A DNA stretch of 49,542 bases from a virus, in IMG/VR virus record IMGVR_UViG_3300047094_001644, positions 1 through 49,542 of that record; one strand, 5' to 3'. The notes below the pieces were generated by a model, which did no database searches, was not told the DNA's origin, and saw only the letters and a list, made by a program, of their open reading frames with translations. Below, in pieces: positions 2,572-36,568 of this stretch (the first letter of the stretch is position 1; every line of letters begins with the position of its first letter). Made by a program: the position numbers and the translations under genes.

Positions 2572-4029
2572 TTACGGACAAGGCCCCCATGCAGAAAGAA
2601 GAACGCCTAAATCTTCGCCATTGACGACTGAATCTCCAGTAAGGTCAGATCCAGATGAACCCCATGAAGACAACAATTGACCAAGATCGCTTCCATTGAC
2701 AGACCTGTCTCCATTTAAATCTGCTGGGCATGGAACAGGGCGAGCAAGAAGCACGGCAGCTTCTGCATTCAGCATTCCCCATCCAGTAAGAGTGTCAAAT
2801 CCTACTGCTCCCATGTCCTTGCATGTTGTTTGCATAATGGACTCAACCTGTGCTGCAGAAAGTGATGGGTTCACTGAAATGATAAGTGCTGCGACACCAG
2901 CGGCATATGGGGAAGAAAAAGAAGTTCCGTCAATAAGTGAATAGTCACCTGAAGAGTATCCATTTGATCCCGTCCTGTCTGTGGTGTAAACCGATTGGCC
3001 AGCAGCAACAAAAGCGAGCTTTGTGCCGTATGACGAAAAAGAAGCTTTCTGTCCGTTTCTGCTGCTTGCACCAACTGCGTTCACCGCAGAAGCACTTGCT
3101 GGGAAACCAATAGAAGTGTTTCCAGAATTTCCAGAACTTGCAAAATTAACTATTCCAGCATTTTTTGCGGCAGAATATGCATTTGACATTGCCGTAGAAG
3201 CTGTGCCGTAATCATTGCTGTTGTTTGTTACCCTTACTCCATTGCCGATTGCCCAGTTAATAGCATTTACAGTCCATGATGTTTGCCCCTGCCACGACCC
3301 ATTGCATGGAGTGATTGCTGTGCCAACTTTTGCGGAAATGACTTTGCAATTTGGTGCAGTTCCCACGGTTCCTATTGAATTGTTGATAATGCCTGTAATG
3401 CATCCTGCAACGGCAGTCCCGTGATTGTCACAAGAGTTGCTTGGTCCACCGCCGCTTACTCCGTTCACTGCACCTGTTGTGAAGTCTCTTCCTGGCAGTT
3501 GATTTATATCTGGATGATCTTGCTGTATTCCTGTCTCAAAGACAAGTATTTTTACCGTTGGCTGTCCTTGAGTAATAGACCATGCATTTGTTGTATTCAT
3601 ATCAAAGTTTACCAGTCCACCAGAAGCTCCGGTATTTCTGTGACCCCAGCATTGTGAGAATCCGGCATCGTTTGGAATCACTTCGCTGTATGTTGCGGTA
3701 AATCTTCTGTCCATTTCAAAGAATGAAACAGTCTCATTTCCTTCAAGTGCACTTGACACGTCTGCTATGTTAGTTATAAAGTTACTCGAAACAACGACAA
3801 GTGCCAAATTGGGGATATTTTCATAATAATGTGCAGACTCAATCATGTTCCCAAGAGATGCAATAGTCCTCTGTTTGTCCTCCAGAGAAACGCCGTCATT
3901 AAAACCGACAAACGCCGTATTCACCTGGGTTTCCGTGGCGGTTACGACGTTCTTGTTTGTTGTATTTTTCTTAAATTCAGAACCGTTTACGATAAGAGCA
4001 CTTACTAAAATTGCGAGTAGTATTTTCAT
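2572..4029 (-). CDS. secreted subtilisin-like (S8) protease with two dockerin-like repeats, 485 aa
   Basis: Peptidase S8 family. Visible parts: a signal peptide (residues 1 to about 17), a prodomain (about 35-110), then the catalytic domain. The His box is DNHGTAVAG (H203), the oxyanion Asn is in SSGNSG (N301), and the Ser box is DGTSFSSP (S370). The position of the catalytic Asp holds Glu (VFETG, E165). After residue 433 come two calcium-loop repeats, CPADLNGDRSVNGSDLG and a DLTGDSVVNGEDLG copy, each ending in a SWG or AWG motif. This is the dockerin-type tail typical of secreted proteins of Planctomycetota. GGAG lies 10 nt before ATG 4029. Likely an acquired bacterial gene. Whether it is active with Glu is uncertain. 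Confidence 0.9.
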   Translation of the reverse strand: MKILLAILVSALIVNGSEFKKNTTNKNVVTATETQVNTAFVGFNDGVSLEDKQRTIASLGNMIESAHYYENIPNLALVVVSSNFITNIADVSSALEGNETVSFFEMDRRFTATYSEVIPNDAGFSQCWGHRNTGASGGLVNFDMNTTNAWSITQGQPTVKILVFETGIQQDHPDINQLPGRDFTTGAVNGVSGGGPSNSCDNHGTAVAGCITGIINNSIGTVGTAPNCKVISAKVGTAITPCNGSWQGQTSWTVNAINWAIGNGVRVTNNSNDYGTASTAMSNAYSAAKNAGIVNFASSGNSGNTSIGFPASASAVNAVGASSRNGQKASFSSYGTKLAFVAAGQSVYTTDRTGSNGYSSGDYSLIDGTSFSSPYAAGVAALIISVNPSLSAAQVESIMQTTCKDMGAVGFDTLTGWGMLNAEAAVLLARPVPCPADLNGDRSVNGSDLGQLLSSWGSSGSDLTGDSVVNGEDLGVLLSAWGPCP

Positions 4030-4116
4030 TGGACATAATCTCCTGTGATAAATGATGTCATCATTTGTACGATTATGAATTTAAAATGTTCTGTAATTTT
4101 TAAAAATTATTTCAAA

Positions 4117-4431
4117 TTAATCAAATTCGTGGTCAAAGGCTTTTTCTCGCAAATGTTCTTCATCTCTGAGTATGGCCTCAACCTCCCTAACCATTTCATT
4201 CGTGACTGGAATTTCTTCACCCTCTGCGTCTGTGCAGTAAAGTGACTCAACTGTCACATTGAGATCAACATCTGTGGTCGGAGGCTCATATCTGTCACCT
4301 GGATCTCTTTCTATTGAAAATTCCACATTTGCAGTTCCAGAGCAAAAGCAAATGGGATTAATAAGCTCTATTCCGTCAAAGTCATAATGGAATGATCCGT
4401 ATCTTTTTCTTGCGCTTTTGTACCAGTTCAT
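4117..4431 (-). CDS. hypothetical protein with MNWYKSAR tag, 104 aa
   Basis: Small protein beginning MNWYKSAR, the short form of the shared N-terminal tag. The remainder is acidic, with a beta-rich middle and an acidic helical end. AAGGA lies 8 nt upstream of ATG 4431. No family recognised. Confidence 0.6.
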   Translation of the reverse strand: MNWYKSARKRYGSFHYDFDGIELINPICFCSGTANVEFSIERDPGDRYEPPTTDVDLNVTVESLYCTDAEGEEIPVTNEMVREVEAILRDEEHLREKAFDHEFD

Positions 4432-4449: not shown

Positions 4450-4968
4450 TTATCTTGGGGTGTTTGCTCCCAGGCCAGGTAGTCTCAGTCTTTTTTCTGC
4501 ATCTCCCTGTAAGGTGCTTTGGCTTCGGGATTGCTCATGTTCTTTTTGAGAAAGTGTCTCCATTGAATCTGCCATGTCCATGAGCTTGGCTGGTTCTGGA
4601 GTTTTTACATTCGGAAATCTTACCGTAAGCATTGCCAGTGCTTTTGCAAACTTGTCTGCAACTTCAATTTTTTGCTTTTCTAACTTGAGCTGGAATCTGT
4701 AGTCATCAGCGTCTCCGCCTGCATCAGCTGACATCGCAGCCCTACGAGCCCCATTTGCACTCTCCCTCATCATGTCTCTTTCGCCCGCAAGGTTGTCGGC
4801 AAGATCCTGCGCAGACGACTCTTCTATGCTGTCTATATATTTTTTTATTTCTTCTTCTGAAGCAGTGACGAAGAATGCACGTCCTTTCTCTTCTTGCTGT
4901 GCAATTTTGAACCAACCAGCCTTTTGCCCGATCTCCAACCACTGTTCTTTAGATAGTTTGTATTGCAT
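4450..4968 (-). CDS. tagged hypothetical protein (MQYKLSK...AGWFKIA), 172 aa
   Basis: Starts at ATG 4968 with GGGAG 9 nt upstream. The first 25 residues carry MQYKLSKEQW and KAGWFKIA, the long N-terminal tag. The rest is highly charged and probably alpha-helical or coiled coil, ending in an Arg/Pro-rich tail. No known domain. The composition would suit a scaffold or internal virion protein, but that is inference. Confidence 0.65.
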   Translation of the reverse strand: MQYKLSKEQWLEIGQKAGWFKIAQQEEKGRAFFVTASEEEIKKYIDSIEESSAQDLADNLAGERDMMRESANGARRAAMSADAGGDADDYRFQLKLEKQKIEVADKFAKALAMLTVRFPNVKTPEPAKLMDMADSMETLSQKEHEQSRSQSTLQGDAEKRLRLPGLGANTPR

Positions 4969-5193: not shown

Positions 5194-6039
5194 TCACATC
5201 AGTTCCTGTGCTACCTCTTTGCCGTGCCCAATAAGCCAGTCTGCTGCTTCCTTCATACTGATCTCTCCCCCCTTCACCAAGCCCTTCCAGCGCGGGTCAT
5301 CAGGGTTCTTGCCAACAAGTTCCATGAAGCGGGCCAATGTAGTGCCAAATGATCCACCACCCCTTTCCAGCCCCATGGCAATGAATCCCTCTGGCTTCAG
5401 CCATCCCAGCCTGTCCGTCATCTCCTTGTGCTCCACCTGCGTTCCGTCCCTGTACTCCGTCTGCTCGTGCCAGTCAAAGCCCTCGTTGTACGAACGCTTC
5501 CCTTCCTCCAGTCCCCATTTGCCCATCCAGCCACGAACAACGGAAGAGATGAAGTCCGTCCACCTGCTGCGAGGCTCGAACGGGTGATACATCACGACTG
5601 TGTCGTTCTCCCGCAAAAATCCACTCCAGGTTCCAGGGATCTTGTAGAGAAGGGCGACGCCATGAGGACCAAGGTTTGCCTCCAGCTGTCTCGGAAGGTC
5701 TTTCAACGCCTCAAGGGTGTTTCCCATGCTCTCCGCGCCCCCGTCCTTTGGATTGACGGTAAAGTACAGCTTCCACTCCATTCCCTTGTGGGCAAGTGGA
5801 TTCATCCTGTCGGTGTTCTTTCGCTTCTGGGGGTCGTAGTCCACGTATGCCCAGCTGCCACCGGACCAACGGGACACGTAACCCGGTATCTTCACTATTT
5901 CCTCCCCCCATTTTTTATTCAGCTCAGCGCTGCTCCTGTGGGGATTGGCACGTTCACGCAATGCGGTGTAGATTTCCCTTGCACCCCTGCTCGTGTTCTG
6001 GCCCCATGCACTTGTCTGCGCCGCCTTGAGCCAACCCAT
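5194..6039 (-). CDS. hypothetical protein with MGWLKAAQ tag, 281 aa
   Basis: Begins MGWLKAAQ, a variant of the shared N-terminal tag. The remainder is a Trp/Gly-rich mixed protein with no family I recognise. Its ATG follows the upstream stop by a few nt, with AAGGAG 6 nt before it, so it is co-transcribed with 6040-6525. Base composition is more GC-rich than genes at 1-2.5 kb. Confidence 0.65.
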   Translation of the reverse strand: MGWLKAAQTSAWGQNTSRGAREIYTALRERANPHRSSAELNKKWGEEIVKIPGYVSRWSGGSWAYVDYDPQKRKNTDRMNPLAHKGMEWKLYFTVNPKDGGAESMGNTLEALKDLPRQLEANLGPHGVALLYKIPGTWSGFLRENDTVVMYHPFEPRSRWTDFISSVVRGWMGKWGLEEGKRSYNEGFDWHEQTEYRDGTQVEHKEMTDRLGWLKPEGFIAMGLERGGGSFGTTLARFMELVGKNPDDPRWKGLVKGGEISMKEAADWLIGHGKEVAQELM

Positions 6040-6525
6040 TCAGCTCTCCTTGCGGACGCAATTGGGAACGGTCTTGCCCTTTTTCTTCTTCATGCCAACG
6101 GCTTTGTAGCCCTTCCAGCACTTGGCTTCCTTCAGCCATCCAGCTTGTTCGCCTGCTTCCCGAACTCCCAAGTCGCCAACTTCAAGCATTTTATAGATGA
6201 TTTTTTCAATGATACTCCGTAACTCGATTCGGTCAATGAACAAATCTTCTGATGCTCCTGTGTCCAAAAAATTATGATAGTCAACAACGATCTCTTGCTC
6301 CAGATCTTGAAGCTTCTTGCTAAACTCGCTTGAATTGGAATTCCAGATTTTAGAAAGTTCAATGATCCTCTTTGCTATCTCGGGTTTACGCATCACCTGA
6401 AAGACCGCACCAGCAACATTTGATTTCCCCTGCTTCGTCAGGACTGCCTGTTCCCCGCTGATCCTCAGCCATCCAGCTTGTTCGCCTATTTTGAGCCATT
6501 CGCTTTTAGATAATTTGTACTGCAT
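6040..6525 (-). CDS. tagged protein with C-terminal CWKGYKAVG motif, 161 aa
   Basis: The N-terminus carries the long tag (MQYKLSKSEW, then EQAGWLRIS). Near residue 125 the tag core recurs as EQAGWLKEA, directly followed by KCWKGYKAVGMKKKKGK and VPNCV. The CWKGY...VPNCV peptide is a short motif I associate with structural proteins of marine myophages (recollection, not searched). The repeat of the tag core next to it suggests a modular peptide. It ends 1 nt before the next gene starts. Confidence 0.7.
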   Translation of the reverse strand: MQYKLSKSEWLKIGEQAGWLRISGEQAVLTKQGKSNVAGAVFQVMRKPEIAKRIIELSKIWNSNSSEFSKKLQDLEQEIVVDYHNFLDTGASEDLFIDRIELRSIIEKIIYKMLEVGDLGVREAGEQAGWLKEAKCWKGYKAVGMKKKKGKTVPNCVRKES

Positions 6526-25360: not shown

Positions 25361-26563
25361 CTACCGATCTCCTGCCATCGCATACATATGCTTGTATGGA
25401 CGCAGTTCACGATTCCTTCTGACCATGCCATCAATGTACTGATACGCATGGGGTCCAAGTTGTGCAATCTTCTTGCAGAAGTCAACATCCTTGCGTAGAC
25501 GATTAGAGGCACACAGGAAGTTGCGAGGGGCAATCTTGCACATTCCGTACACGATGTCCTCGTCATCAGCCCATTCGTCAAAGGCTGACAGAACCATGTC
25601 AGTACGACTCCAAGCCTCATCAGAAATCGGGATGATTACACCTTTGTTCGTAAGGACAAAGTTGCAGTCAAACTGCTTCACTCCATCCTCAAACACAGGA
25701 GTGATGCTGCCTTCGCACTTGTCTCCACGGAATCTGCCGTTGATGCAACGCAGAATGGAGTTATCGTCAAGCAAGAATGCCTGATTGTCGTTAGTGAAAT
25801 GATCCGCTGATGCAACTGCACGATGAATAGGGCTTTCCTTGTCCTCAACGGCAGCGATACTCATGGAGGTACTCCACTTGTTGTTGCCCCTCATGGCAAT
25901 ATGCACACCCCTTCCGTCCCTATAGATCAGGCTTCCATCGCTGAATGAAGCCCAAATGCAATCACTTACGGTCTTGCACTTCCAGTCACAACTCTTGTCG
26001 CTATCTGAACCGTTCTTGTCCCAATAGTAAAGGAGACTGCCATCTTCACCCATCATGTACCCGCTGTCTCGCGCAATCGCAGCAGACTTGATTGCAGGAA
26101 ATGACTTAGCGTGTTGGAAGAACATGGTCGTTGACGGACCTTCTTCACGCAAGAACATGGGAACGCTCGTTCCATCCGTTTGAGTAAAGAGAATGGTCCC
26201 CCATCCAACGCACATGATGTTCTTGAAAGTACGGTCAAATGGGATAGAGTCCCATTGACGCTTCTTGAATGTACCCCAAGCGTACAGTCTGCCCGTGTTA
26301 TCAATGGCGAAAGTCATTCCCCACATGGTCACGCACTTCACGATGTGACCGATGTGCTGAGGAGGAGCGTGGAAATACTTGTTGCTGATGCTGCCGACAA
26401 TCACTCCGTTGGGAGAAATCTTCGTGTACGAGTGACACCCCTTGGAGTAGAAGCCAAAGGCTCCCTCACGACCCGCTTCTCCGACCATGCGAATGCTGCC
26501 ATCACTCAGGGTGAATGCGGCGGCGCTGTGTCCGCTGAAGAAAGAATCGACCTTGATGCTCAT
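25361..26563 (-). CDS. RCC1-like beta-propeller protein, 400 aa
   Basis: Repeated blades of about 50 residues with the RCC1-type pattern: SGHSAAAFTLSDGSIRMVG, WGMTFAIDNTGRLYAWG, WGTILFTQTDGTSVPM. A C-terminal non-repeat region follows. RCC1 propellers bind proteins or nucleosomes in eukaryotes; bacterial and phage copies are poorly known. A second RCC1-like gene lies 1.1 kb upstream (27656-28768). The element at 26584 is exactly 20 nt upstream. Confidence 0.7.
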   Translation of the reverse strand: MSIKVDSFFSGHSAAAFTLSDGSIRMVGEAGREGAFGFYSKGCHSYTKISPNGVIVGSISNKYFHAPPQHIGHIVKCVTMWGMTFAIDNTGRLYAWGTFKKRQWDSIPFDRTFKNIMCVGWGTILFTQTDGTSVPMFLREEGPSTTMFFQHAKSFPAIKSAAIARDSGYMMGEDGSLLYYWDKNGSDSDKSCDWKCKTVSDCIWASFSDGSLIYRDGRGVHIAMRGNNKWSTSMSIAAVEDKESPIHRAVASADHFTNDNQAFLLDDNSILRCINGRFRGDKCEGSITPVFEDGVKQFDCNFVLTNKGVIIPISDEAWSRTDMVLSAFDEWADDEDIVYGMCKIAPRNFLCASNRLRKDVDFCKKIAQLGPHAYQYIDGMVRRNRELRPYKHMYAMAGDR

Positions 26564-27534: not shown

Positions 27535-27663
27535 TCAAGGAAATCGGTCGATGGCAAAAAAGTAGGCAGTCCAAACAAAATGAGGCTGCATCCACTTTGG
27601 AGTATTGCTGATCCACCAATCCATGATCGGTTCAATGTTGGAATACCACTTGCGTTCAAACAT
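27535..27663 (-). CDS. small Trp-rich protein, 42 aa
   Basis: Begins MFERKWYSNIE, overlapping the RCC1 stop by 8 nt (ATGTTTGA). Aromatic-rich, possibly membrane-associated (WTAYFFAI). Weak ribosome site. Could be a real coupled gene. Confidence 0.45.
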   Translation of the reverse strand: MFERKWYSNIEPIMDWWISNTPKWMQPHFVWTAYFFAIDRFP

Positions 27664-28768
27664 TGACCGCCACCTCGCCCTTACACATCGGGCAAACAGG
27701 GGACTTTGCGACAAAGCGGAACTTGCACGGCTCACACTCGTAGTCGGAATCATCGCAATCATCGGTGATCGCGCTGACAGCGGCAACGACAATCGGCTTC
27801 GCCTTGGCGGTCTTGTCCTCACGAATCTCATAGATCATGCCGTCCTTGCGGGGGCATTCACGATGATCGTGACCTTCGATCACAAGTTCCTTGTTCTTGG
27901 TGTTGTCTCCAACAAGGACAAGATGGCGACTGCCTTCATTGTCGCTCACACAGATTGCATAACCATTATTGCCGCCATCGGCGCTCTCAATCGACCAACC
28001 ATCGGGAAGGCGAATGTTTCCGAAATGCTCTCCAACGACAACGAGTTCACGCTTGGAAACAACATATCCATAGAACTTGTTTGCACAGATCACATCGGTG
28101 ACATCACCCGCAATCTCCGCAATCTGCTGAGTTCCCGTGTGGGTGCGGGTGAGCAGATATGCCCTGTCATTCACATGGGCGATTGCAATGGTCGTGGTGT
28201 TGGGGTCGCCGCAACGAACCTTGGTAACTTTACCGGGAAGTCCGCTCAGGCTGCAAATGCTGCCACGAATGACGGAGATCGAACCCTTGAGATCATCAAC
28301 AACGAGAGTCCCGTTGTCATCAATGTCAAAGTCTCCGATGTTGGAGTCAAAGGTGAACACACCTTCATCCTTAGCCGTCTTGGAGTAAATCGTGGACGGG
28401 AGAACGCTGTACGGCTTCTGATCGCCAAACACGGCAATCCGATGCTTTCCGTCACCGTACTCAATGGTCGCAGCGGTGTAGTTGCGAGAGCAGCGAACGG
28501 TCTTGAACTTGCCACGACTGTTCAGATTGCCGCTGTTCAACTTGCCACCAAGCGCGTTGCCAATGGTGAAAAGACTGCCGTTGGAGTCAACGGCGGCAGA
28601 GTGAGAGAAGCCACAGGCTGCGCTCACGAACTTGCCAACCGGGAAGTCCAACTTGCTCTTGGCGCGGCTACCCCACCCAAGGATGCTGTCACCAATAAGG
28701 GCAGCAGAGTGAGAGTTGCTGACGCTGACCGAATCAACAGAGAGATTGTCGTAGATGCGTGCGGGCAT
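27656..28768 (-). CDS. RCC1-like propeller with C-terminal zinc ribbon, 370 aa
   Basis: Blades with the RCC1 pattern: SNSHSAALIGDSILGWGS, CGFSHSAAVDSNGSLFTIG, CSRNYTAATIEYGDG, and later FYGYVVSKRELVVVG. After a linker the end carries CEPCKFRFV and CPMCKGEV, a Cys4 zinc ribbon. A propeller plus zinc ribbon suggests a binding platform. The element at 28789 is exactly 20 nt upstream of ATG 28768. Followed by two tRNA-Leu genes. Confidence 0.75.
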   Translation of the reverse strand: MPARIYDNLSVDSVSVSNSHSAALIGDSILGWGSRAKSKLDFPVGKFVSAACGFSHSAAVDSNGSLFTIGNALGGKLNSGNLNSRGKFKTVRCSRNYTAATIEYGDGKHRIAVFGDQKPYSVLPSTIYSKTAKDEGVFTFDSNIGDFDIDDNGTLVVDDLKGSISVIRGSICSLSGLPGKVTKVRCGDPNTTTIAIAHVNDRAYLLTRTHTGTQQIAEIAGDVTDVICANKFYGYVVSKRELVVVGEHFGNIRLPDGWSIESADGGNNGYAICVSDNEGSRHLVLVGDNTKNKELVIEGHDHRECPRKDGMIYEIREDKTAKAKPIVVAAVSAITDDCDDSDYECEPCKFRFVAKSPVCPMCKGEVAVNV

Positions 28769-28777
28769 ATCGTAAGT

Positions 28778-29695
28778 TCACCGAGAGAGGGGGAAAAAGA
28801 GGTTTCTGTATTTGAGGAGAGCGAGTTCCTTTGCCTTTGCCTCAATCATCACATCGTATTGTCTGACTGGACAAAGTTCGGGAATCTCATTCACGATGTA
28901 GTCGGAATGTGCTTGGGGACGGCAACCCTCTTTAGGTTCACTATAATGAACTTTTGGAGTTTTTCCGTTCCAAGTGGAAAGAGCGATGTCTGCTACGGCT
29001 GTCAGTTCATCTCCACCTGTGTTGAGCGAGTGGTGATGAATGTCAAGAACAAGTGGAATACCTGTCTTTTCATGCACCGGAAGAAGGTCACGAATCGTCC
29101 ACATTCCCTCCTTGTCATCGTTTTCAAGCGTCAGCCTTGATTGAGCGCGTGGAGAAAGTCGGGAGAAGTTGTGGACAAACCGCTCTGCACACCCTTCCTT
29201 GCCGTCATACACACCACCAATGTGGATGTTGATTGGGAAGTCATCCATTCCAAGAAGATCGCCAACCATTGAGTGCATCTCCACGCACAGCAAGGACTTA
29301 GCGACAACTGCCTCATCAGGGGATGCAAGACAGGTGTATGGACCGGGGTGCATTGACAGCCGGATACCATGCTCACGGGCAAGGTTGCCGACATTCTGAA
29401 ACACGCCCTTGATCGTGAACGCAGTAGCGAGGTCATCAAGACCGTACTTCAGTTCGGGATGATCCATGAACGGAAACATCCCTGAACCAATGCGGAAGAA
29501 GTTGATTTTATTTTCAACATTCCACCACATGATCTTGAGCAGATCACGGGAGTTCGACAGGGCAAGTTCATTTACTCGCCGCAGACTAAACCCGTCCATC
29601 CGAAGCGTTCTGTCCGTAAAGACACGCTTGGAGACTGGCTTAGTCTCCCCGAGGGTCATATTCTGACAGGCATAACCGAGGTGTCGGATGGGCAT
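28778..29695 (-). CDS. uvsE: UV-damage endonuclease (UvdE family), 305 aa
   Basis: UVDE TIM-barrel. Starts MPIRHLGYACQNMTLGE (typical LGYAC-N opening). Then FFRIGSGMFPF, IRLSMHPGPYTCL (metal His), FPINIHIGGVYDGKEG, RLTLENDDK (metal Glu), and GIPLVLDIHHH with KVHYSEP. The family nicks DNA 5' of UV photoproducts, a repair route independent of UvrABC, and is plausible for a sunlight-exposed phage. ATG 29695 has AAGGA upstream. The element at 29729 is 33 nt upstream. Confidence 0.9.
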   Translation of the reverse strand: MPIRHLGYACQNMTLGETKPVSKRVFTDRTLRMDGFSLRRVNELALSNSRDLLKIMWWNVENKINFFRIGSGMFPFMDHPELKYGLDDLATAFTIKGVFQNVGNLAREHGIRLSMHPGPYTCLASPDEAVVAKSLLCVEMHSMVGDLLGMDDFPINIHIGGVYDGKEGCAERFVHNFSRLSPRAQSRLTLENDDKEGMWTIRDLLPVHEKTGIPLVLDIHHHSLNTGGDELTAVADIALSTWNGKTPKVHYSEPKEGCRPQAHSDYIVNEIPELCPVRQYDVMIEAKAKELALLKYRNLFFPLSR

Positions 29696-29746
29696 GATCG
29701 TCCTTGCTGCCACAACCTTCCCCATCGTGGGGGAAAAAGAGAAAAA

Positions 29747-34214: not shown

Positions 34215-35465
34215 TTAGCCCACACCCACTTGAATGTGGTCGCCATAAGGCGGCTTGACATTCGTGGTCGTGACCCAAAGGACATCGACTTCGGGCTGAT
34301 CTCCAAACTCGCCGTAGCCATCGGTGAGGTACACCATAATGTCCACGGGGACTTTCTGCTCCTTGAGGTGGTCAAACACGGGACGGAAATCGGTTCCGCC
34401 GCCGCCCTTGAACGCCGTTGGGCAGGACTGATCGGGACTGATCCAACGCCCGTCATGGACTTCCGCATCACACTCCACAAGGTAAAGAGGGCAGTTGAAC
34501 TGACGGCGAATCTCATCAATCTCAGCGATTGCCTGAGCCATCTCTGACTCACCAATCGAACCGGAGGTGTCCACGGCAAAGCCGATCTTCGGGGCATCGT
34601 TGCCGTACATGGACGGCAAGTAAAGACCCTGATGGACAAAGCGGCGGTTCGGGGGCATGAAGGTGTAGTGATCCCGCAGGATGCGAGTCACGCCAAAGCG
34701 GAGGTACTGCTTGAGTGCTTCGCGCCAATCAATCTTGCTGCCCAACTTCTCCGACACGGCACGATCAAGAGACTCAGGCATATCGCCCTGCATCTTTGCA
34801 CGGGCATGGCTCAAGGCGATTGCCTGATCCCAACCCTGCTCGTTGCCCTTCTTTTCGGCACGGCGATCACGGATCACGATGCCATCGCCATCGCCATCGC
34901 CATCCTCGCCCTTGTCGCTGTAGTCAACATCGCCCGAAAGCGTGTAGACCTTCACGGTCTTGGCGTTGCGGATGACATCTTCGTAAATCTCCTCAGCGGA
35001 CATCCCCGCGTACTTCTTGTCAAGCAGGACACCCTTCGGCAGATACTTGGAATCGTTGAAGTTGTCCGACAGGAGGAGGTTGATGGCGTAGTCAATCGCA
35101 ACATTCCAAAGCAGCGGATCACGGCTCTGACGGCGATCAATGTGACTGAACGCAGCGTGACCGATCTCATGCGCGAGGACGAACAACGCCTGATCTTCGG
35201 TCAAGTCCTTGAAGAACTTTGCTCCGAAACTGATGTTGCCGTATCGGTCAACACAGGCGGTCGGAACATCCTTGTCGGACTTGATCGACACCTTGCAGTT
35301 CTCCGCAAGCAGTCCCCAAAAGGGAAAGAAGCGGTACATACGGAACACGATGCCCTTCATGCGCTCACGGAGTTCGTTGAGTTCAGAAGGCGTGAGTCCG
35401 ACATCCTGAGCGTTGTCGGCAGCAGGAGCGGCGGTTGCGGTGGAGTTGTTCTTCTTCTTTGCCAT
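34215..35465 (-). CDS. VWA-like/putative metallopeptidase (DUF2201 family), 416 aa
   Basis: The N-terminal metallopeptidase-like domain has VLAHEIGHAAFSH (HExxH, about residue 105). The C-terminal von Willebrand A-like domain has FAVDTSGSIGESE (MIDAS D-x-S-x-S, about residue 290) and a late VYLTDGYG. This is the DUF2201 architecture, usually paired with a MoxR ATPase, as here (next gene upstream). Such pairs act as metal-dependent, ATP-driven remodelling systems. The element at 35486 is exactly 20 nt upstream. Confidence 0.85.
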   Translation of the reverse strand: MAKKKNNSTATAAPAADNAQDVGLTPSELNELRERMKGIVFRMYRFFPFWGLLAENCKVSIKSDKDVPTACVDRYGNISFGAKFFKDLTEDQALFVLAHEIGHAAFSHIDRRQSRDPLLWNVAIDYAINLLLSDNFNDSKYLPKGVLLDKKYAGMSAEEIYEDVIRNAKTVKVYTLSGDVDYSDKGEDGDGDGDGIVIRDRRAEKKGNEQGWDQAIALSHARAKMQGDMPESLDRAVSEKLGSKIDWREALKQYLRFGVTRILRDHYTFMPPNRRFVHQGLYLPSMYGNDAPKIGFAVDTSGSIGESEMAQAIAEIDEIRRQFNCPLYLVECDAEVHDGRWISPDQSCPTAFKGGGGTDFRPVFDHLKEQKVPVDIMVYLTDGYGEFGDQPEVDVLWVTTTNVKPPYGDHIQVGVG

Positions 35466-35545
35466 GTCCCAAGTCCTTCGGGGAAGGGGGAAAAAGAGGG
35501 AGAGGGGGAGAGCGTTGCCGCCCTCCCCCCACTCCTGCGGGGGGA

Positions 35546-36568
35546 TTACTTCTTGATCCCGTACTTCGTCAGCAACTTCTCATGGGTCAGCACCCACTTG
35601 TGAGCAGACTTGCTCTCACACACAGCGGTCTTGACATGAGGATCGGAGGTGAGAGTACGGACAAAGAACAGACACGCGATCTCCGGGGACAGGGCAGACA
35701 CGATCTCACAGCACCGATCCGCGTTCGTGGTCACGAACTTCTTGTCACCACGGGACAGGCGGGAAGCGAGAGCCATCGCCACAGCGTAGGAAATGCTGAT
35801 CTTCTTGGGGTTCTCCTTGAACTCAGCCTTCTTCGCAATCAGAGCGTCAATGTCGGGCATATCCCGAATCTCCGTCCGATACGCCGTGAACTCCGCAGCA
35901 GCACCCTTGCCGACAAGAGGCTCCATGTCCTCCTGCTCGTCAAGACCCGCCTGAAGGAACTTCGACACGCGATCCCACGAACGGGGGGAGGCAAAGTTGG
36001 CGTACTCGTCCTTCGGATCGGTCGTGAGCAGACCGGGGCGGAAGTTGAGGAAGCCGATCACATGGTCGTGAACTCCCGCACCCATCGCCCACGCAGACCA
36101 AGCCTCAACGGACGGCTCGTACTCAACCACGGCAAAGCGGTTGCGGAGCGGTGCGGAGAGCGGGTTGACATGAGCCTTGTGGGAAGCCTTGTTTCCCGCA
36201 GCCACGATGTACCAACCATCGCCCAACTTATGCGGACCACACTTGCGATCAAGGATGATCTGAAGCGCAGCGTTCTGCACGGCAGCGGGGGCGGTGTTCA
36301 ACTCATCAAAGAAGATGATGCCCTTGCCTTCAGCCGGGATGAACTCAGGACGCGCCCACTCAACCACGGACTCACCATCGCCGTTCTGCTTGACGGTCGG
36401 CAGACCACGCAGGTCAACCGGATCAAGCATGGACAGACGGACATCAATCACGGTGTCCCCGTCCGCTGCCTGATGAACCATCTGCGACTTGCCAACACCG
36501 GGCGCACCAAAGATGAAGGTGGGAACACCCGTCTTGCGGTTGCGCTTGATCTTCTCAACGAGATTCAT
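35546..36568 (-). CDS. MoxR-type AAA+ ATPase, 340 aa
   Basis: AAA+ core: Walker A GAPGVGKSQ (about residues 20-28), Walker B IIFFDELNTAP (about 125), and a sensor-1-like IVAAGN (about 157). Arg-finger region and lid follow. MoxR proteins work with VWA-domain partners, and the adjoining gene encodes one. Possible roles are complex remodelling or metal insertion; the target is unknown. The element at 36648 is 79 nt upstream. Confidence 0.85.
   Translation of the reverse strand: MNLVEKIKRNRKTGVPTFIFGAPGVGKSQMVHQAADGDTVIDVRLSMLDPVDLRGLPTVKQNGDGESVVEWARPEFIPAEGKGIIFFDELNTAPAAVQNAALQIILDRKCGPHKLGDGWYIVAAGNKASHKAHVNPLSAPLRNRFAVVEYEPSVEAWSAWAMGAGVHDHVIGFLNFRPGLLTTDPKDEYANFASPRSWDRVSKFLQAGLDEQEDMEPLVGKGAAAEFTAYRTEIRDMPDIDALIAKKAEFKENPKKISISYAVAMALASRLSRGDKKFVTTNADRCCEIVSALSPEIACLFFVRTLTSDPHVKTAVCESKSAHKWVLTHEKLLTKYGIKK

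Follow-up and report, generated by a model that had tools for sequence, protein, structure and literature searches.

Subtilases are textbook Asp-His-Ser enzymes. A Glu-His-Ser subset of prokaryotic subtilases, with Asp changed to Glu and with His and Ser kept, was reportedly proposed by Siezen, Renckens and Boekhorst in 2007. Members of that subset were reportedly cellular and predicted only; a search of the available literature on Glu-His-Ser or Asp-to-Glu subtilases found nothing relevant. A triad Glu is also found in the sedolisins (S53), which have the subtilisin fold; there, however, the Glu replaces His as the base (PMC11593635). Among phages, subtilases of the S8 family are represented by phrog_3677 and by proteins of Bacillus phages BSP14 and vB_BcoS-136 and Moorella phage MTATph1. 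These are ~29-36% identical to the protein described here, and those that were read have Asp.

The subtilase considered here is encoded by a virus, in a stretch of 49,542 nucleotides that we call the window (the whole of IMG/VR record IMGVR_UViG_3300047094_001644). It has in common with S8 subtilases such as subtilisin and thermitase the fold, the His and Ser motifs, the oxyanion Asn and the layout with an I9-like prodomain, but a Glu occupies the position of their catalytic Asp. The arrangement is like that reported for the 2007 subset, with His and Ser kept beside the Glu. The clade to which it belongs is viral, however, and its Glu change appears to have arisen separately. Nor is the protein a sedolisin: Glu replaces Asp, and His203 is kept in the motif NHGTAVAG.

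Two groups of cellular relatives frame the comparison. Tailed subtilases of Phycisphaerae (L036, L064, L066, L040 and L043) have the same prodomain, catalytic domain and two-repeat tail at 41-48% identity, but they keep Asp and have longer open frames (560-721 aa). Glu-type proteins of Zixibacteriota (L024, L028 and L103) have an ETG box and are 53-56% identical to the window catalytic domain; they are nevertheless closer to Asp-type relatives in Zixibacteriota and Gemmatimonadetes (up to 65-71%), and they have other C-terminal domains, with no dockerin tail found. Phage subtilases are common, and a Glu-His-Ser subset had reportedly been proposed for prokaryotes. What seems new is the fixation of Glu across a viral clade, combined with a host-type docking tail.

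Domain layout of the phage subtilase

The gene and its immediate surroundings are described in Table 1. The match to Peptidase_S8 (Pfam PF00082) covers residues 159-418 and scores 135.5 bits against a curated cut-off of 21.8, and the protein also matches phrog_3677 'protease' (E=7e-46) and, in the PDB, subtilisin Carlsberg (E=1e-36), where Glu165 is aligned with the Asp of VLDTG. The best NCBIfam match, the type VII mycosin TIGR03921, reaches 160 bits and lies under its cut-off of 278.75.

A structure model built on an alignment of 85 relatives (mean pLDDT 92.4, pTM 0.84) has an N-terminal helix followed by the prodomain, the catalytic domain and the tail. A strand ends at residue 165 and helices span residues 203-212 and 373-386, as in subtilisin; the best PDB matches of the model in Foldseek are subtilisins, including thermitase (1thm, TM 0.93, 2.1 A). 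The Asp-position box reads LVFETGIQQDHPDI and contains Glu165. The motifs NHGTAVAG (His203), SSGNSG (Asn301) and DGTSFSSP (Ser370) are all intact, as the initial annotation had read these residues. In score, fold, His and Ser motifs and oxyanion Asn the protein therefore belongs with PF00082, but because Glu165 replaces the catalytic Asp we regard it as a variant S8 subtilase rather than a canonical member. At the N-terminus, hydropathy has a maximum of 3.3 (12-residue), and the same layout is found in the viral relatives examined.

Table 1. Features of the subtilase gene and its neighbours in the window (A2, alignment of 85 sequences)
Feature	Positions	Strand	Basis or remark
Downstream genes, 172, 155 and 255 aa	771..2562	-	Collinear with L080, where the subtilase occupies another block position
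Pre-pro-subtilase gene, complete	2572..4029	-	485 aa plus stop, ATG start; ORF list and full-length homologues
Dockerin-like C-terminal tail, residues 434-485	2575..2730	-	Two loop-helix repeats, D-x-N/T-x-D-x-x-V-N-G-x-D-L-G
S8 catalytic domain, residues 116-430	2740..3684	-	PF00082, E=3e-39; Foldseek match to thermitase
Nucleophile Ser370	2920..2922	-	Invariant in A2
Oxyanion Asn301	3127..3129	-	Nearly invariant in A2
Catalytic His203	3421..3423	-	Invariant in A2
Glu165 (codon GAG), subtilisin Asp32 position	3535..3537	-	Alignments
I9-like inhibitory prodomain, residues 32-111	3697..3936	-	Beta-alpha-beta-beta-alpha-beta in the model, pLDDT mostly 80-97
Putative signal peptide, ~residues 1-18	3976..4029	-	MK, then hydrophobic core ILLAILVSALIV; hydropathy
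Ribosome-binding site AGGAGA	4039..4044	-	9 bases ahead of the ATG; read from the sequence
Upstream neighbour, 104 aa, MNWYK tag	4117..4431	-	Homologue upstream in L080

Glutamate at the catalytic aspartate position

Scans of IMG/VR yielded ~30 related viral loci, whose full-length members are 56-74% identical. The Glu that had been noticed in the single sequence holds throughout: Glu165, opposite the Asp of VLDTG, is Glu in 25/25 aligned viral sequences of the clade, among which His, Ser and Asn are invariant. One third-position change suffices to turn Asp into Glu, so a misreading through sequencing or assembly has to be considered. It can be set aside as having practically no chance of being right, because all 25 sequences, from many samples, carry Glu, through two different codons (GAA in 23, GAG in 2).

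Outside this clade Glu is rare. The cellular relatives of the same subfamily in the tree set, from Planctomycetota, Zixibacteriota and a few others, divide into 64 with Asp and 3 with Glu (3/67); the three are from Zixibacteriota MAGs (L024 and L028) and a Zixibacteriota genome (L103). All readable subtilases from 40 further genome stretches of Planctomycetota and Zixibacteriota have Asp. So do all 53 readable sequences among 54 sampled from more distant viral subtilases (Glu, 0/53), as well as six phage subtilases from INPHARED records. Phage subtilases as such are common, since one scan alone found 288 viral stretches that encode relatives; the view that a phage-carried protease of this kind is unusual thus fails for the protease itself. 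It is the Glu form that is limited to one viral clade and rare cellular cases.

How often the change occurred was addressed with a careful maximum-likelihood tree of 63 rows, from which the trait column had been removed, and 200 bootstrap trees. L103 falls beside the Asp-type L061 (100/99), to which it is 71% identical, as against 53% to the window subtilase, and L024 and L028 group with the Asp-type L102 and L022 (100/99). A single Glu clade appears in 0/200 bootstrap trees and is rejected when forced (delta lnL 85.8, p-AU 0.0035). In a quick tree of 92 rows that includes long branches, one Glu clade is not rejected (p-AU 0.51) and lnL is 1.9 higher when it is held. We give more weight to the careful tree, which supports three separate Asp/Glu changes; parsimony on it does not distinguish gain from loss of Glu.

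The sister group of the viral clade is weakly supported (80/79) and mixes Planctomycetota, Zixibacteriota and others, so we name no single donor of the catalytic domain, which would lie among these groups. The initial annotation had called the tail typical of secreted Planctomycetota proteins and had named a phylogeny pointing elsewhere as counter-evidence; our tree gives no indication against that phylum, which is one of the candidate donor groups just named.

Whether the Glu site works is a separate question. Engineered subtilisins without Asp32 require an added anion, and nitrite or azide restores them (PMC7935941). The site is therefore a sensitive one, and the analogy suggests that an anion in this place is needed rather than the exact side chain; Glu may suffice as that anion. 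Because the extra methylene could strongly slow catalysis, it is also conceivable that the site is too slow for turnover, and that the protein is a surface-binding or decoy protein or cuts only its own prodomain, as a pseudoprotease or single-turnover enzyme. Such a fate would be in keeping with the canonical standing of Asp32, with the cost of its loss in engineered subtilisin (PMC7935941) and with the retention of Asp in 53/53 other scorable viral subtilases. A dead enzyme, however, would be expected to drop Ser or His in some lineages, whereas His203, Ser370 and Asn301 are invariant in the 25 viral sequences; Glu, moreover, retains the carboxylate. Strong purifying selection acts on the catalytic domain (dN/dS of 0.015-0.095 in ten viral pairs with measurable synonymous change), which argues against decay, and a repeated and tolerated Asp/Glu change fits a working enzyme. 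We consider the pseudoprotease unlikely and, on these comparisons, judge an active Ser-His-Glu triad to be considerably likelier.

A nearby Asp might have taken over the catalytic role, as was pointed out at the outset, but the alignment scan brought none to light. D201 and D174 are conserved alike in sequences with Asp and with Glu at residue 165. When the alignment was scanned for residues that set the viral clade apart, D273 was the one new acid, and it is absent from the cellular Glu types. On this alignment we reject the explanation, as no acid near the active site was gained in common by the Glu types.

Three other residues may be connected with the change. Thr166, Val235 and Gly236 occur together in 28/28 Glu types and 0/64 Asp types; taken one at a time, they are present in 34%, 17% and 16% of the Asp types, respectively. 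Val235 is opposite Val95 of subtilisin in the Carlsberg alignment, and Gly236 adjoins the position of Leu96, a residue that lines the S2 pocket next to Asp32 and His64. There is a hint here of compensating residues, which we put forward as a suggestion because the combination was picked post hoc from ~315 columns and its pair test comprises three independent pairs.

The dockerin-like tail and the probable host

The two tail repeats read CPADLNGDRSVNGSDLGQLLSSWG...DLTGDSVVNGEDLGVLLSAWGPCP. Both are also present in the full-length viral homologues, so that the two-repeat dockerin reading of the initial annotation stands. A Pfam search of the subtilase did not report the tail, and its match to the 'GC-type dockerin' family NF041540 (E=0.0013, 19.1 bits) falls short of the curated 29-bit cut-off. 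A profile built from the viral tails (A3), on the other hand, matches the solved type I dockerins 6kg9, 6kge and 2y3n at E-values from 2.5e-4, for 6kg9, to 1.5e-3, and the model places two short high-confidence helices at residues 446-454 and 471-479. With two calcium-loop/helix repeats and this profile similarity, the tail is type I dockerin-like.

Among cellular homologues, fifteen have a matching tail (E<1e-4) that forms the C-terminus or lies close to it, and all are from Planctomycetota, mostly Phycisphaerae, except for one MAG labelled Cyanobacteria; the same profile search found no matching tail in homologues from Zixibacteriota or Flavobacteriales. In L036 and L064 from Phycisphaerae the tail is at the very C-terminus, in the protease-plus-tail layout of the phage protein. 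The planctomycete character first ascribed to the tail is thus supported by cellular relatives with the same architecture. GC-type dockerin matches number at least 150 per genome in some Phycisphaerae and are few in the Zixibacteriota sample. In some subtilase-bearing phages the subtilase is not the sole dockerin-tailed protein, since L091 (15389-16195, minus strand) and L078 (18260-19336, minus strand) each encode a second one, whose dockerin repeats lie at the C-terminus or close to it (35.1 and 28.4 bits, respectively, versus a Pfam cut-off of 22.9).

No cohesin partner for the tail was identified. In freshwater planctomycete genomes (Nemodlikiaceae), cohesin-dockerin tethering of proteases at the outer membrane has been proposed as the 'planctosome' hypothesis (PMC6461901), and by analogy the viral dockerin-tailed protease could join an assembly of that kind.

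Because both the tail and the protease-tail architecture occur in Phycisphaerae, a host of that type is our best guess and, we think, a probable one. The hint of a host or donor seen in the single sequence holds for the tail-bearing architecture, which occurs there, rather than for the catalytic domain. Searches for DNA or CRISPR links gave no direct connection to any host. For one stretch, a search of ~400 Phycisphaerae genomes returned tRNA genes only; as scoring was confined to the top two candidates in each genome, a spacer may have escaped notice. For another stretch there were weak matches only, among them one 26 bases long that had no CRISPR repeats around it. Two genomes considered as hosts by tail profile (G146 and G166) were rejected, as they have similar repeats, several of them followed by a further anchor-like segment, and no clean match.

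Gene neighbourhoods and proposed role

The subtilase gene is found in at least seven different viral gene neighbourhoods. The window and L080 share a collinear block of six neighbours, with the subtilase between different members of the block, and we conclude from these differing flanks that the subtilase was inserted or moved separately. The variety of neighbourhoods, together with two insertion points in one block, marks the gene as exchangeable cargo. The genes themselves are also mosaic. L080 (4243-5661) and L082 (488-1888) have near-identical catalytic domains (dS 0.19) and much more divergent prodomains and tails, and the comparison with L079 likewise sets a near-identical catalytic domain against a prodomain or tail that has diverged to a very different degree; phage-phage recombination would account for such mosaics. 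These patterns fit an exchangeable accessory gene that may act outside the cell.

Two recurrent N-terminal tags, M(N/G)W(Y/L)KxA and MQYKLSKxEWxxIGxxAGWxKIA, occur on otherwise different proteins near the subtilase. Within its first 6.5 kb the window has six tagged proteins (771-1538, 1535-2002, 4117-4431, 4450-4968, 5194-6039 and 6040-6525, all on the minus strand), and L080 has seven; the tags may be capsid-targeting or sorting sequences. Elsewhere in the window, all on the minus strand, are a phage tmRNA (31329-31683; tag ANESLMAVAA), a MoxR-like AAA ATPase that adjoins a DUF2201 metallopeptidase/VWA-like protein (34215-36568), a UvdE UV-damage endonuclease (28778-29725) and two proteins whose RCC1-like/DUF4116 matches are weak (25361-26563 and 27656-28768); the window also has seven tRNA genes.

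The initial annotation had placed the subtilase among tagged, possibly virion, proteins. This is true of the window and of its close relative L080, but the neighbours differ elsewhere and the subtilase itself is untagged. If it were a protease carried inside or on the virion, it might open the host surface at entry, and such a position among tag-bearing proteins would be natural, as would the arrangement in the T4-like relatives L002, L005, L006, L008, L076-L079 and L091, where the gene follows the major head protein and/or tail-tube genes (phrog_138, phrog_45) on the same strand. Other copies, however, lie beside ribonucleotide reductase (L094 and L095) or with a clamp loader nearby (L086). 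A host-type dockerin tail, moreover, is easier to understand on a protein that the host exports, and because the subtilase has a predicted signal peptide and no tag we favour export over packaging; a role in the virion seems to us quite improbable. In eight T4-like loci the gene directly 3' of the subtilase (e.g., L076, 9009-9971, plus strand) encodes a protein that has ISISGC, or a similar sequence, as a lipoprotein-like signal. A family search with the L076 protein and its homologues gave no assignment; this conserved gene is possibly an envelope partner.

Our preferred reading, which we hold with somewhat better than even confidence, is that this accessory gene supplies the phage with a Ser-His-Glu subtilase that is exported, is probably active and is docked by its tail on the surface of a Phycisphaerae-type host. 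The sequences themselves show the domain layout, the fixed Glu, the purifying selection and the exchange among phage backgrounds, whereas activity, export, docking partner, host and target are inferred from them. The infected cell would produce the pre-pro-protein, which the signal peptide would route through Sec. The I9-like prodomain would fold and inhibit the subtilase until it is cleaved off, and Glu165 would then serve in place of Asp32, orienting and polarising His203. Modelled on the presumed role of such tails on host proteins, the two-repeat tail would bind calcium and anchor the enzyme on the host outer surface or on a secreted scaffold. There, late in infection, it may trim proteins of the envelope or surface and so aid release or alter the surface. 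We favour release or a changed host surface over a role in entry, though the evidence that separates them is thin.

A mobile accessory gene that is found in only some phages, and whose product is predicted to be exported and probably anchored, might instead serve superinfection exclusion or surface remodelling, with the anchored protease stripping phage receptors or the proteins of competitors rather than promoting release. The data do not separate this role from release; we regard it as distinctly unlikely. The proposed reading can also be taken further: the viral clade may have permanently adopted a working Ser-His-Glu triad, with Val235 and Gly236 recurring beside the Glu, together with a copy of a host dockerin tail that hijacks a cohesin-dockerin surface scaffold. 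We consider this combination possible but doubtful.

Finally, we note what the subtilase may mean more broadly. A Glu triad that is fixed in a viral clade and was reached separately in cells makes the effect of the longer acid on rate and on pH dependence testable. The tail, for its part, suggests a borrowing by Phycisphaerae phages of the surface-docking code of their hosts, a little-studied aspect of a group that is mostly uncultured.
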